From Alcaligenaceae bacterium (lineage in GTDB: Bacteria; Pseudomonadota; Gammaproteobacteria; Burkholderiales; Burkholderiaceae_B): a stretch of 64,000 nt of DNA. Each line of letters opens with the position of its first letter. Positions within the stretch are counted from its first letter, which is position 1. Where the stretch lies: positions 558,001 to 622,000 of the forward strand of contig JACCET010000001.1 of assembly GCA_013416405.1 (NCBI GenBank), in the 5' to 3' direction. A program made the position numbers and the translations under genes. Positions 41,085-54,495 of the stretch are shown here, piece by piece. The notes beneath the pieces were generated by a model. That model ran no database searches. It saw only the letters and a program-made list of their open reading frames with translations, and was not told the origin of the DNA.

Positions 41085-41444
41085 TCAAGCAGCCAAAGCA
41101 GACTTGGCTTGTTCAACCACGGCAGCAAAGCCGGCTTTATCGTTTACAGCCATATCGGCCAGAACTTTGCGATCCAGTTCAATCGAGGCTTTTTTGGTGC
41201 CGGCGATGAATACGCTGTAGGATACGCCCAGTTCACGGCAAGCCGCATTGATACGGGTGATCCAGAGCGCGCGGAAAGTACGCTTTTTGTTGCGACGGTC
41301 GCGGTAGGCATATTGCCCAGCCTTCATTACCGCCTGTTTGGCGATACGGAATACATTACCGCGGCGACCACGATAACCTTTTGCTGCTTTAATGACTTTT
41401 TTGTGACGAGCACGGGCAGTAACGCCGCGTTTTACGCGTGGCAT
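41085..41444 (-). CDS. rplT: 50S ribosomal protein L20
   Basis: The 119-residue basic protein matches bL20 from end to end ('[62 protein letters not shown]'). It is needed for early 50S assembly and in other bacteria represses its own operon through the leader RNA. It lies 13 bases after rpmI. In this genome infC is not adjacent, so any L20 autoregulation must act on the rpmI leader at 41656-41825. Confidence 0.97.
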
Positions 41445-50194: not shown

Positions 50195-50737
50195 CTATTC
50201 GCCCGCTTTGCCTGCCACGGATTTCTTGCGAGGTGCAAGCACCATGACCATTTGGCGGCCTTCAAGCTTGGGCATGGCTTCAACCTGGCAAAGCTCGACC
50301 AAATCGTCGCGCACGCGCTCGAGTACGCGCATACCCAGTTCCTGGTGAGCCATTTCACGGCCACGGAAACGCAAGGTTACTTTGGCCTTGTCGCCGTCTT
50401 CGATGAAGCGGCGCAGATTGCGCAGCTTGACTTGATAGTCGCCTTCATCGGTACCAGGACGGAATTTGACTTCTTTGACCTGGATGACTTTCTGCTTGGC
50501 TCGCGCCTCTTGTTGGCGTTTTTGTTCTTGGTATTTGAACTTGCCGTAATCCATCAGGCGACATACAGGCGGCGACGCATTGGGTGCGATCTCGACCAGG
50601 TCGACTTCATTTTGCTCGGACAACTGCAGCGCGTCAGCGGTTTTTACGACCCCTAGCTGCTCGCCGTCGACTCCAATAAGACGCACCTCGGGGACACGGA
50701 TTTCGCCATTGATGCGATGAGGTTTTTCGGTTGCGAT
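50195..50737 (-). CDS. infC: Translation initiation factor IF-3, with ATC start codon
   Basis: The 180-residue protein has exactly the E. coli length when started at ATC (50735-50737). The N-terminus then reads [15 protein letters not shown], the standard IF-3 opening. AGGAG (50746-50750) lies eight bases upstream. A later GTG at 50686 would remove the conserved N-terminal segment, and no ATG is available. Family knowledge: infC uses rare start codons (AUU in E. coli) for IF-3 autoregulation by start-codon discrimination. It lies 29 bases after thrS. Its usual followers rpmI-rplT are 8.5 kb away. Confidence 0.93.
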
Positions 50738-50766: not shown

Positions 50767-52713
50767 TCAGGCCTGACCGGATTCACCGCCATTATGACGG
50801 GTATTGATGGCGTTATGCAGGCGCTCGGTAAAGTCGTTGACCGACATGACACCAAGATCGACGCCGCCACGCCCACGTACCGCCACTTGTCCGGTTTCAC
50901 GCTCTTTTTCGCCGACTACCAGAATGTACGGTATTTTTTGCATACTGTGTTCGCGGATTTTACGGGTGATTTTTTCGCCACGCAAATCGGAAAACGCCCT
51001 AAACCCTTGTTTTTTCAGGCCTAGAGCAACTTCTGCGGCGTAATCGGCCGAAGATTCGGAAATACAGCACACCACGGCATGCTCGGGAGACAGCCAGGCA
51101 GGCATAGCGCCAGCGTGGTTTTCGATCAGCATGCCTATGAAACGCTCGAATGAACCCAGTATGGCACGATGCAGCATGACCGGCGTGCGGCGCTGATCGC
51201 TGGCATCGACATATTCGGCACCCAGGCGCTGCGGCATGGAAAAATCAACCTGTATCGTGCCACATTGCCAATGGCGTCCAATGGCATCTTTCAGGGTGTA
51301 TTCGATTTTCGGGCCATAAAAAGCACCTTCGCCAGGCGTGACTTCATACTTACAACCCGTACGATCCAGGCTTTCCATCAGCGCCTGCTCTGCCTTATCC
51401 CAGACTTCGTCCGAGCCTATACGCTTTTCGGGACGAGTAGCCACCTTGTACAGAATCTCGGTAAAGCCAAAATCAGCATACACTTTTTGCAGCAAGGCGG
51501 TGAAGTCGGCGCATTCATCCTGCAATTGATCTTCAGTGCAGAAAATATGGCCGTCGTCTTGAGTAAAGCCGCGCACGCGCATCATGCCATGCAAGGAGCC
51601 GGAAGGTTCATTGCGATGGCACTGCCCGAATTCGCCATAGCGTATGGGCAGCTCGCGATAGGAATGCAAGCCGGCGTTGAAAATCTGCACGTGTCCGGGA
51701 CAGTTCATGGGCTTCAAGCCATAAACACGATGCTCCGATTCGGTCGTGAACATGTTTTCGGCGTAGTTATCCCAGTGGCCGGTTTTCTTCCAGAGCGACA
51801 GATCAAGAATTTGCGGCGCCTTGACTTCCTGATAGCCGTTGTCACGGTATACAGCGCGCATGTACTGCTCGACTTGCTGCCATAACACCCAGCCTTTAGG
51901 GTGCCAGAAAATCAGGCCCGGCGCTTCTTCCTGAAAATGGAACAGGTCCAGCTCGCGGCCCAGCTTGCGATGGTCTCGCCTTTCGGCCTCTTCCAGCATG
52001 GTCAGGTAAGCACTTTGCTCTTCTTTGCTGGCCCAGGCTGTGCCGTAGATACGCTGTAGCATTTCATTGTTGCTATCGCCGCGCCAATAGGCACCAGCCA
52101 CCTTCATCAACTTGAAAACCTTAAGCTTGCCGGTCGAGGGCACGTGCGGGCCACGGCACAGGTCGATGAAATCGCCTTCTCGATACAGACTGATGGCTTC
52201 ATTGGACGGAATCGAGGCAATGATTTCGGCCTTGTAATGCTCGCCTATGCCCTTGAAATATTCCACAGCATCGTCGCGCATCCACTCTTCGCGCGTAACG
52301 ACCTCATCTTTCTTGGCCAATTCGGCCATTTTCTTTTCAATGGCTTCCAGATCTTCAGGCGTGAACGCACGCTTGTACGAGAAATCGTAGTAAAAGCCGT
52401 TGTCTATCACTGGCCCTATGGTTACTTGCGCGTCGGGGAACAGGGACTTGACCGCATAGGCCAGCAAATGCGCGGTGGAATGACGGATAAGGTCAAGACC
52501 ATCGGCATCTTTGGCCGTAATGATGGCCAGCTGCGCATCTTGTTCAATGACGAAACTGGTGTCAACCAACCGCGCCTCTGAGCCTGCCGTGCTTATACGC
52601 CCCGCCAGTGCGGCGCGGCCCAAGCCCGTTCCAATGGAGTGAGCCACATCGCTGACCGCGACGGGGCCTGGATACTCGCGCTGGGAACCATCGGGCAGTG
52701 TAATTTGAACCAT
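50767..52713 (-). CDS. thrS: Threonine-tRNA ligase
   Basis: The 648-residue class II enzyme has the TGS domain (~1-62), the editing domain with '[35 protein letters not shown]' and '[19 protein letters not shown]', the catalytic core with motif 1-3 ('[10 protein letters not shown]', '[35 protein letters not shown]', '[19 protein letters not shown]') and the C-terminal anticodon domain. ATG at 52713 has AGGACG upstream. The leader carries a Thr-codon attenuator and an intrinsic terminator that ends 18 bases before the start codon. Confidence 0.96.
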
Positions 52714-52731
52714 AGAACGTCCTGAAATGCA

Positions 52732-52755
52732 AAAACGCGGCACTAGCCGCGTTTT
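52732..52755 (-). terminator. Intrinsic terminator in the thrS leader
   Basis: A 10-bp perfect stem AAAACGCGGC/GCCGCGTTTT with loop TAGT, read on the minus strand and ending in a five-T run, lies 18 bases before the thrS start codon. It is the 3:4 hairpin of the attenuator. Confidence 0.85.
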
Positions 52756-52802
52756 GGGAATATTGTTTTGCTAGTTAGCAGATAAACAGTACGCGGCGAC
52801 AG

Positions 52803-52838
52803 CTAGAAAGGCGTGATCGTAGTTCGCGTAGTGGTCAT
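52803..52838 (-). CDS. Threonine-rich leader peptide of thrS (11 codons)
   Basis: The minus-strand frame encodes Met-Thr-Thr-Thr-Arg-Thr-Thr-Ile-Thr-Pro-Phe then TAG: six of eleven codons are Thr (ACC, ACT, ACG, ACT, ACG, ACG). It ends 90 bases upstream of the thrS start and directly before the attenuator RNA elements. No clear Shine-Dalgarno precedes its ATG (CTTAGCCCC lies there). The nearby AT-rich TATATTTTAT could be a -10 element, in which case the message would be nearly leaderless. Too short for automatic gene callers. Confidence 0.7.
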   Translation of the reverse strand: MTTTRTTITPF

Positions 52839-52965
52839 GGGGCTAAGATAGATAAAATATAAGTTGTTCAAGTGTAACACCTGTTGCGACCGTGGCAGCC
52901 GACTGATCCCGAAGTACCTCAAAACGTCCACTATTAAAATGCCTGGTGTTGTGAAAAAGCCCGTT

Positions 52966-53007: not shown

Positions 53008-53084
53008 AGGCGGTTAGCTCAGTTGGTTAGAGCGCTACGTTGACATCGTAGAGGTCGCTGGTTCGAACCCAGTACTGCCTACCA
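53008..53084 (+). tRNA. tRNA-Val (anticodon GAC)
   Basis: The 77-base cloverleaf has acceptor AGGCGGT paired with ACTGCCT, an encoded ACCA end, and anticodon stem CTACG/CGTAG enclosing TTGACAT, hence anticodon GAC. The integrase gene 181 bases downstream indicates that its 3' end served as the attachment site of a mobile element. No second copy of the 3' end was found to the right within the window. Confidence 0.96.
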
Positions 53085-53130: not shown

Positions 53131-53164
53131 ACCCGCAAAAAATAACGCTTTGCGGGTTTTTTTG
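53131..53164 (+). terminator. Terminator after tRNA-Val
   Basis: ACCCGCAAA (53131-53139)/TTTGCGGGT (53149-53157), with a 9-base loop and a run of seven T. It lies 46 bases after the tRNA. Confidence 0.88.
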
Positions 53165-53227
53165 TGCCCGTCTCACCTTCCATGACTGTCAGACACAGTC
53201 AGTCCAGCCAAATTTCTTTGGGGTATA

Positions 53228-53266
53228 TTTGGGGGTATGGAGAAAGCTTTTGGGGGTATGGAGAAA
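53228..53266 (+). repeat. Direct repeats in front of the integrase
   Basis: TTTGGGGGTATGGAGAAA occurs at 53228-53245 and again at 53249-53266, with a shorter related copy TTTGGGGTAT at 53215-53224. The second copy runs up to the integrase start codon and may include its ribosome site. Such iterons next to an integrase can be arm-type or excisionase sites. Confidence 0.75.
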
Positions 53267-54495
53267 TGGCGCGTATTGTCACGCCTTTGACCGACATTCG
53301 GTGTCGTCAGGCAAAGTATAGTGCGGATGGGACAAAAAAGCTCTTTGACGGTGGTGGCTTATATTTAGAATTAATGGCCAGCGGATCAAAGAAATGGCGG
53401 ATGAAGTTTCGCCAGCCCAACGGCAAAGAGAACATGCTGACCTTTGGGGACTATCCCGAGGTCGGCCTGCAGGCTGCACGAGATAAGCGCCGGGAAGTGA
53501 AGGCGCAGATCGAGCAAGGAAAGAATCCCGCTATAGAGCGAGAGCTGGCAAAGCAGCTCACCATTCAAGAACAAAACGACACATTCAAGGTAGTTGCTGA
53601 AGAATGGCTGACCATGAAGAAGGGCGGCTGGAGCGATGGCTATCACTCGCGGATGTCCAACGCCCTGAAATCCAACGTCTACCCCGATATCGGTAATCTG
53701 CCTATTGCGCAGATACCAGGGATTGTGATTCTGAAGATTGTCCAAAAGGTGGAAAAGCGTGGTGCTCTGGAAATGGCCAGCCGTGTATTGGATGCCATTG
53801 GTATGGTATTTAAATACGCAACCGCCACCGGCCGGGTCAGAGCCAATCCCGCCGATGGCCTGGATCAATTCCTAAAGGATAGGCCGCCGGTTCAGCATTA
53901 TCCGCACGTGGATGCGCCAAGTATCCCGGAGATGCTGCGCAGAATCGACAGCTACCATGGCCGGGCGGAGACGATTTTCGCCACCAAGCTGATGGTGCAC
54001 ACTTTCCCGCGCACCTCAGAGCTTATATGGGCTGAATGGCCAGAGTTCGACCTTGATGGCGCCGTGTGGGTGATTCCATCGGCCAGGATGAAAGGCAGGC
54101 TCATGGCTAAACAGCACGGCCCGGTACACCTGATACCGCTGGCCAGCCAGATGGTCGACATGCTGCGCGATCTGAAATCAATCAATGGCCGCTTCAAGTA
54201 TCTATTTCCCGGAGAGCGCAACCCGGCCACAAGGCCGATATCGAACGAGACTATCAACAAAGCGCTCAAGATCATGGGCTATGGAGGGGAGCAGACCGGG
54301 CACGGGTTTCGCGGGCTGGCGTCTACCATCATGAACGAATCGGGCCTTTTCCGCGACAAAGCCATCGATGCACATTCACCTTTCCGATCCAGAAGATCGT
54401 TGCGGACGGATGAAATCAAAGACATTGCGATTGATCCAGTTTCTTTCGATACTGAGCAATCTAGCATTTTATGGCTAGATACTCAAGCGCCATAA
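53266..54495 (+). CDS. Tyrosine-recombinase integrase of the P4 type, C-terminus lost
   Basis: The 409-residue product from ATG 53266 has the N-terminal DUF4102 arm-binding domain ('LTDIRCRQAKYSADGTKKLFDGGGLYLELMASGSKKWRMKFRQPNGKENMLTFGDYPEVGLQAARDKRRE'), the central SAM-like domain and part of the catalytic domain: the first catalytic Arg in 'HTFPRTSELIWAEW' and the H-x-x-R in 'GHGFRGLASTIMNESG'. After about residue 365 the sequence no longer resembles the family. The second His and the nucleophilic Tyr region ('H...AYN..EYL') are absent and replaced by an unrelated tail. It is therefore probably inactive. Inserted at tRNA-Val, it marks a degraded genomic island. Confidence 0.85.
   Translation: MARIVTPLTDIRCRQAKYSADGTKKLFDGGGLYLELMASGSKKWRMKFRQPNGKENMLTFGDYPEVGLQAARDKRREVKAQIEQGKNPAIERELAKQLTIQEQNDTFKVVAEEWLTMKKGGWSDGYHSRMSNALKSNVYPDIGNLPIAQIPGIVILKIVQKVEKRGALEMASRVLDAIGMVFKYATATGRVRANPADGLDQFLKDRPPVQHYPHVDAPSIPEMLRRIDSYHGRAETIFATKLMVHTFPRTSELIWAEWPEFDLDGAVWVIPSARMKGRLMAKQHGPVHLIPLASQMVDMLRDLKSINGRFKYLFPGERNPATRPISNETINKALKIMGYGGEQTGHGFRGLASTIMNESGLFRDKAIDAHSPFRSRRSLRTDEIKDIAIDPVSFDTEQSSILWLDTQAP

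Follow-up and report, generated by a model that had tools for sequence, protein, structure and literature searches.

The question raised by this locus is how threonyl-tRNA synthetase is controlled where its gene is preceded by a short reading frame rich in threonine codons and by a hairpin with a T-run. The textbook example of thrS control is the E. coli repressor-synthetase, which acts on the identical target gene by translational repression through tRNA-like stem-loops in the mRNA and not by transcription attenuation. The window analyzed here, a stretch of 64,000 nucleotides from an Alcaligenaceae bacterium, carries on its minus strand a 648-amino-acid ORF (50767..52713, ATG at 52713) that we take, judging by its sequence, to be thrS. 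A preliminary description of this DNA had proposed that the gene is attenuated through Thr codons. The coding frame of the leader, the position of the antiterminator strand at its stop codon, a pairing that is better than in shuffles and the retention of terminators among relatives all support this proposal, and we consider it very probable that a ribosome-mediated transcription attenuator couples thrS expression to the supply of threonyl-tRNA.

All elements of the predicted attenuator lie on the minus strand. The leader peptide ORF, MTTTRTTITPF, consists of 11 codons and a TAG stop (52803..52838) and is assigned from its sequence, its Thr content and the conservation of its frame in relatives. 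Its ATG is at 52838, its stop codon occupies 52805-52803, and it reads ATG ACC ACT ACG CGA ACT ACG ATC ACG CCT TTC TAG (52838..52803). Six of the 11 codons in this upstream ORF are for Thr, the amino acid of the target enzyme (p = 0.003 against 300 dinucleotide shuffles). Region 1 (TACGCG, 52825..52830) is complementary, read from 52830 to 52825, to CGCGTA (52795..52790) in region 2, GCCGCGTA (52790..52797), which begins five bases past the leader stop codon. Region 3, AAAACGCGGC (52746..52755), could form an antiterminator with region 2 or a terminator with region 4, as judged from sequence, folding and pairing in the family. It is separated from region 4 by the loop TAGT. The stem arm of region 4, GCCGCGTTTT, spans 52741..52732, and the T-run continues to 52731, so that arm and U-tract together, GCCGCGTTTTT (52731..52741), make up the 3' half of an intrinsic terminator. 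From the T-run to the thrS ATG there are 17 bases. The leader, regions 2, 3 and 4, their order before thrS and the five-base distance from stop codon to region 2 thus stand, to the base, where they had been placed before.

Folding calculations are consistent with this arrangement. The whole leader folds to -32.7 kcal/mol (z = -3.70), which none of 200 shuffles matches, and this minimum-energy fold contains helices 1:2 and 3:4. The 10-bp 3:4 terminator, a hairpin with a T-run, reaches -16.4 kcal/mol alone (z = -3.87), in agreement with the earlier claim. In a stretch that contains regions 2 and 3 and ends before region 4, the 2:3 pairing forms at -15.5 kcal/mol (z = -1.88), an energy matched by 10 of 200 shuffles, and an inner hairpin is also present. 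The 1:2 helix was correctly identified in the window, where it occurs in both sequence and fold, but it is specific to a clade. A generic terminator scan listed no terminator at the thrS leader. We take this to be a limit of the scan, since the 10-bp stem uses up most of the T-run.

A putative extended -10 element for the leader transcript, TGTTACACT (52871..52879, minus strand), is predicted from its sequence and from its recurrence in the family. It is found 8-75 nt 5' of the leader ORF at 54 of 85 family loci, as compared with a mean of 1.1 and a maximum of 4 in mononucleotide shuffles. The median distance from this element to the leader start is 35 nt in the family, and it is about 32 nt in the window, where the start point can be guessed at ~52864. 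Because the element recurs before the leader ORF, transcription probably begins 5' of the leader. A generic promoter scan listed no promoter on the minus strand at this site. A clear Shine-Dalgarno sequence before the leader ATG is absent in the window, as had been pointed out before. The sequence TATCTT just 5' of this ATG led us to consider a leaderless leader peptide, which was rejected in view of the family's recurrent -10 farther upstream.

A frame test was anchored on the bare sequence CGAAC, with neither an ORF nor Thr required, at 232 sites located 80-330 nt upstream of thrS. Behind this anchor, the dinucleotide AC recurs in 126 of the 232 sites at offset 6 and in 128 at offset 9, and out of frame, at offsets 7, 8, 10 and 11, in 8, 5, 20 and 9 of them. 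An ATG followed by an open frame within 45 nt upstream of CGAAC exists in frame 0 at 186 of 232 sites and in frames 1 and 2 at 17 and 14. The in-frame recurrence of AC and the in-frame ATG argue that the leader frame is coding, with the element read in codons that specify Thr. Starts, lengths and stops of the ORF shift between genera, and the frame and the Thr codons remain constant. Three loci, L219-L221 of family f30, have many Thr codons in a quite different sequence that lacks CGA-ACN. Third-base freedom of the Thr codons was rejected as coding evidence, because the ORFs had been chosen by their Thr content and an Arg-Thr pair, a selection that fixes two bases of the first Thr codon and makes Thr likelier at the following position, so that this freedom is partly built in. 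Single-Thr leaders such as MTPRTCFFLR and MTPRTFPSLI also exist and have few Thr codons for a sensor. The start codon of two MTPRT leaders (L175 and L179) is predicted to sit in the loop of a small hairpin, CGGT-tATGac-ACCG, that might affect leader initiation, and similar letters are present in other MTPRT leaders.

Leaders of this kind are widespread in the order. Of 151 genomes sampled from the family of the window, 148 contain relatives of the first 227 residues of ThrS. Genomes with no thrS match (G051, G141 and G148) or with a match at a contig edge (G110 and G123) were dropped, and the family set consists of the upstream DNA of 146 loci (30 + 116). The other sets comprise 60 upstream regions from 38 other families, selected among 119 genomes that had a match, together with 30 loci of the family to which genome G304 belongs and 80 named loci. 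Removing nine upstreams that are identical over 150 nt reduced 316 regions to 307 distinct ones. An in-frame CGA-ACN in a short ORF within the last 300 nt before thrS, counted with identical rows removed, occurs at 97 of 145 family loci, which represent 32 of 43 genera (5.9 on average in 10 dinucleotide shuffles; 6 on the reverse strand). A further 20 of 60 loci, spread over 16 of the 38 other families, have it (shuffles 1.7; reverse strand 5), as do 20 of 27 loci in the family of G304 (shuffles 1.3; reverse strand 1) and 49 of 75 named loci (shuffles 2.8; reverse strand 4). The sum over the four sets, which overlap in kinship and do not represent independent events, is 186 of 307 regions versus 11.7 in shuffles. 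Counted by threonine content instead, a Thr-rich short ORF ahead of a terminator (p <= 0.05 against 300 dinucleotide shuffles) is present at 84 of 146 family loci from 30 genera, a number that includes one locus (L134) that is likely an artefact of an overlapping tRNA. Leaders of the same type precede thrS in Cupriavidus (MTPRTTTAGKRQ), Ralstonia (MIQAPRTTTASERQ), Paraburkholderia (MTPRTLTETTSERR), Massilia (MTPRTTTLEGFKRR), Acidovorax (MTPRTTSEMLTGR), Roseateles (MTPRTTTTPTKV) and Vogesella (MFKRTTTTRISR).

This distribution has gaps. In other orders, a Thr-rich ORF before a terminator was found at none of the 24 loci for which the thrS start could be placed, among the best 29 loci from 55 genomes. 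There is no CGA-ACN ORF in 11 of 43 family genera (g8, g13, g20, g22, g26, g27, g29, g32, g34, g39 and g42) or in 22 of the 38 other families, as represented by 1-3 genomes per family. At least some members of g20, g22, g29 and g42 nevertheless keep a terminator close to thrS, and in g22 all five loci have a terminator and no leader. The preliminary description had held that relatives with the terminator and without the Thr codons would speak against attenuation. Such relatives make up a minority of genera (some or all members of g20, g22, g29 and g42, and L012 in g17), and the majority do not conform to this pattern. We tentatively read these cases as secondary losses of sensing that left the terminator behind, a reading that they fit. 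Individual loci with a terminator before thrS and no Thr leader ORF include L032, L033, L105, L110 and L126-L128. All terminator counts are lower bounds, as six loci (L038, L049, L058, L077, L090 and L100) have terminators that look real by eye and were missed. An order-wide search with an exact pattern matched 5 of 399 genomes and serves as a lead only, given that the pattern fixes the terminator letters and that a reversed control also matched a few. Overall, the comparison of upstream regions suggested earlier, carried out here on the 307 distinct regions, favors attenuation.

The pairing between regions 2 and 3 was evaluated at 157 loci by computing the best duplex between region 3 and the spacer behind the Thr codons and comparing it with shuffled spacers. 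The mean duplex energy is -14.33 kcal/mol versus -12.04 (sd 0.17) for shuffled spacers, and the mean z is below zero in 66 of 78 clade labels, with an individually significant duplex (p <= 0.05) at only 42 of 157 loci. The duplex starts within -12 to +8 of the end of the stop codon at 124 of 157 loci versus 59.6 (sd 5.6) in shuffles. The first Thr codon lies a median of 26 nt upstream of the duplex (interquartile range 24-29). In the window, the first Thr codon behind CGA is 19 nt from the computed duplex start and 26 nt from the GCCGCG core of region 2. Given the size of a ribosome footprint, these distances imply that a stalled ribosome would leave region 2 free and that a ribosome at the stop codon would cover it.

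The arms of the 2:3 helix differ between clades, with GCCGCG:CGCGGC in the window, TCGAGG:CCTCGA in Paraburkholderia, CTAGTC:GGCTAG in Janthinobacterium and GTTCGCGC:GCGCGGAC in Acidovorax. The 3:4 terminator is likewise kept with arm sequences that vary from clade to clade, which indicates that the pairing is conserved rather than the letters. Among 47 family sequences, 310 of 326 cells of the 2:3 helix are paired (0.17-0.56 in slid controls), as are 450 of 470 cells of the 3:4 helix. Covariation of the 2:3 helix within the family is slight because both regions are nearly invariant there: two cells show double changes, and the paired fraction is 0.951 for own rows, a value that 15 of 500 shuffles reach, versus 0.946 for exchanged rows. 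Within-family covariation is consequently weak evidence, and the cross-clade comparison carries the argument.

The sequence, the ORF, the hairpins, and the conservation and geometry of these elements are the observed part of the attenuation model; from the sequence we infer a transcription start, co-transcription of thrS with the downstream gene infC, ribosome stalling and a response to threonine. RNA polymerase would start at ~52864 and transcribe the leader with a ribosome following. When Thr-tRNA is ample, the ribosome would reach the stop codon and cover region 2, so that 3:4 folds and transcription terminates before thrS. When Thr-tRNA is scarce, the ribosome would stall on the Thr codons behind CGA and leave region 2 free to pair with region 3, and transcription could then proceed into thrS and perhaps infC. 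If the leader is not translated, helix 1:2 would hold region 2 and the 3:4 terminator would again form.

Three other explanations of the element were weighed. It might be a plain RNA regulatory structure, for example one bound by ThrRS as in the established autoregulation of the E. coli enzyme, with the Thr-rich ORF a by-product of conserved nucleotides such as CGAACTAC. The conservation of CGAACT beyond the codon level (ACT serves as the first Thr codon of 119 of 157 leaders) and the leaders with a single Thr codon are compatible with this idea, and the E. coli case is mentioned in the available part of PMC2965389. However, against this idea stand the three-base period of AC after CGAAC with an open ATG frame in the same register, leader start and stop codons that move between genera, and the f30 leaders that have many Thr codons but no CGA-ACN. 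The combination of a terminator with a region 2 that is anchored on the stop codon is also the layout of an attenuator read by translation, and we regard a plain RNA structure as improbable. Control by a T-box or another tRNA-binding riboswitch would have precedent, as T-boxes control thrS in Firmicutes. Nevertheless, neither a T-box nor any other cis-regulatory Rfam family matches the window or 20 relatives at gathering score, and the six sub-threshold matches (E = 0.44-4.8) belong to unrelated families far below their cut-offs, which makes this the least likely of the three.

The hairpin could also be a mere terminator of an upstream transcript that is accompanied by a chance ORF. A tRNA-Val gene does lie directly 5' on the thrS strand, with the terminator behind it, in g42 (L105 and L110) and g37 (L120 and L124), and the g22 loci, all five with a terminator and no leader, are as this explanation would have them. 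In the window, however, the tRNA-Val(gac) gene (53008-53084, plus strand) is divergent from thrS, and L120 carries both a tRNA and a leader. Moreover, thrS needs a promoter and the recurrent -10 sits upstream of the leader, whereas a chance ORF is at odds with 186 CGA-ACN ORFs where shuffles give 11.7. A simple upstream terminator is therefore very unlikely, and ribosome-mediated attenuation remains the strongly preferred reading.

The most conserved feature of the leader, which went unremarked in the preliminary description, is the codon pair CGA-ACN, represented in the window by the near-invariant CGA-ACT of Arg5-Thr6 (52821..52826, minus strand). Its frequency was examined in 168 Thr-rich leaders picked regardless of Arg; ORFs with VIQGG were dropped, being recurrent in one clade and apparently the tail of a neighboring gene. 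An Arg-Thr pair is present in 158 of the 168, and the Arg codon is CGA in 157 of these 158, the exception being CGG in Piscinibacter. At the remaining Arg positions of these leader ORFs, CGA is used in 34 of 172 cases, and it makes up 9.0% of Arg codons in the ORFs of the window. Among the 139 loci outside the 168, CGA is used in 21 of 25 short ORFs with Arg-Thr before a terminator, several of which have one Thr codon after it. The first Thr codon after CGA is also biased, as the ACT found in 119 of 157 leaders accounts for 12.9% of Thr codons in window ORFs. The hexamer CGA-ACT is better conserved than the number of Thr codons, and one-Thr leaders keep CGA-ACN. The ten Thr-rich leaders that lack Arg-Thr do not enter the CGA count, which requires that pair; two of them (L134 and L296) are taken for artefacts, four (L167, L169, L172 and L184) have CTG, CCG, CTG and CTG in place of CGA before the first Thr that follows the start, and L219-L221 contain unrelated runs of Thr.

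Several causes of this invariance were considered and rejected. A general codon-pair bias is contradicted by the ORFs of the window, in which just 5 of 54 Arg-Thr pairs use CGA. Base pairing alone is also insufficient: the C and G of the codon are mostly paired (0.81 and 0.88), but the third base is paired at only 0.50, and of 157 loci it is predicted to be unpaired (p > 0.7) at 63, which belong to 34 clade labels, mixed at 26 and paired at 68. Nor is CGA a general habit of attenuators in these bacteria, since the Arg of the WRWW motif in trpE leaders is CGC in 14 of 14 cases, with CGT in one WRYW leader. The frozen CGC demonstrates that a leader codon can be fixed without being CGA, which weakens a reading of the thrS leader in terms of codon speed. 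Of 16 family genomes (L357-L373), 14 carry such a Trp leader peptide with WRWW ahead of trpE, including the window's own genome (L362, contig C4: MTTTLYCTTAPRAYWRWWRLCSG). No clear leader was found in ilvB upstream regions (25 of 26 loci evaluated). A cause at the RNA or nucleotide level is possible, because ACT is also favored and Thr-rich leaders without Arg-Thr exist.

The decoding of CGA suggests a functional role. This codon is read only by an inosine-bearing Arg tRNA through a poor I:A pair. In the Salmonella his leader, according to the available part of PMC4046918, CGA is among the high-stalling codons and Arg pairs with CGA, AGA or AGG are strongly de-attenuated, and a CGA-CGA pair serves as a slow pair in the accessible portion of PMC11805395. 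Because CGA is slow in the Salmonella his leader, its fixation ahead of the first Thr codon likely matters, whether it sensitizes that Thr codon or provides a basal pause. CGA is thus probably part of the sensor, and we hypothesize that it provides a slow step that sets basal read-through or sensitizes the next Thr codon. A further, tentative proposal, which we find plausible but less likely than not, is that the sensing unit is a single CGA-ACU codon pair rather than a run of Thr codons. A slow CGA in the P site could make decoding of the following Thr codon hypersensitive to the supply of Thr-tRNA, or the pause could set basal read-through into an essential gene and keep ribosome and polymerase in step.

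The predicted attenuator resembles known systems in several respects. The E. coli thrL attenuator, which governs threonine biosynthesis (thrA) and senses Thr plus Ile, likewise has Thr codons in a leader peptide and acts by transcription attenuation. The corresponding Rfam family, RF00506 (Thr_leader), reaches gathering score neither in the window nor in 20 relatives and is not among the six matches to E = 5 in the stretch. Classical attenuators are cited in the available part of PMC1262725 for pheST in gamma-proteobacteria and for trpS and leuS in Streptomyces. Like the system here, these have a synthetase as target, a short leader ORF that carries cognate codons, and an antiterminator and a terminator that exclude each other. 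They serve other amino acids and lineages, whereas the system described here concerns thrS in many families of one order and has a near-invariant CGA before the first Thr. A threonine leader peptide, thrL, has likewise been proposed before thrS of Streptomyces lividans TK24 in the portion of PMC8079986 available to us. That leader, MKRVRPFLETTPGFVPAR, has two Thr, is leaderless and is followed by one hairpin with no U-rich stretch; compared by eye, it bears no evident likeness to the leaders here. The earlier statement that a Thr-codon attenuator on thrS is not a textbook case consequently holds for the open literature searched, but with the qualification of this two-Thr proposal, which lacks a clear terminator. 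Among the matches listed in open PMC literature, as far as their texts were available, no report of a thrS attenuator in Betaproteobacteria was found, nor any description of CGA-ACN as a conserved feature of other attenuators. The available part of PMC2965389 mentions threonyl-tRNA synthetase only for E. coli, and the word thrS is absent from the main texts of PMC2659441, PMC8632094 and PMC3766115. The choice of control codons is treated theoretically in the accessible part of PMC1183508.

The genes around thrS bear on what the attenuator might control. The minus-strand gene at 50195..50737, presumably infC by its resemblance to the IF3 sequence, is possibly co-transcribed with thrS. Read by eye, it has an apparent ATC start (ATC GCA ACC GAA AAA CCT CAT CGC ATC AAT GGC GAA) preceded by AGGAG. 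Downstream of it are what we take, judging by their translations, to be a glutathione-synthetase-like gene and PTS genes, and the rplT match of the same genome lies ~9 kb further on (41103-41444, minus strand). The usual gene order thrS-infC-rpmI-rplT is therefore interrupted here. On the other side, directly 3' of tRNA-Val(gac), is a putative integrase-like ORF (53164-54495, plus strand), as if an element had integrated at this tRNA gene.

These results suggest that, unlike in E. coli, charged tRNA-Thr is apparently sensed through a leader peptide in many families of this order, to which Bordetella, Achromobacter, Cupriavidus and Paraburkholderia belong. If thrS is co-transcribed with infC, then threonine supply would touch translation initiation as well. 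With well over a hundred attenuators that all precede one gene, the leaders form a natural collection for comparing sensor codons, and the near-invariant CGA ahead of the first Thr raises a well-defined question about the part that slow codons play in attenuation. If the two-codon sensor is real, then evolution would have fixed a slow codon for use in attenuation in many families of a single order.
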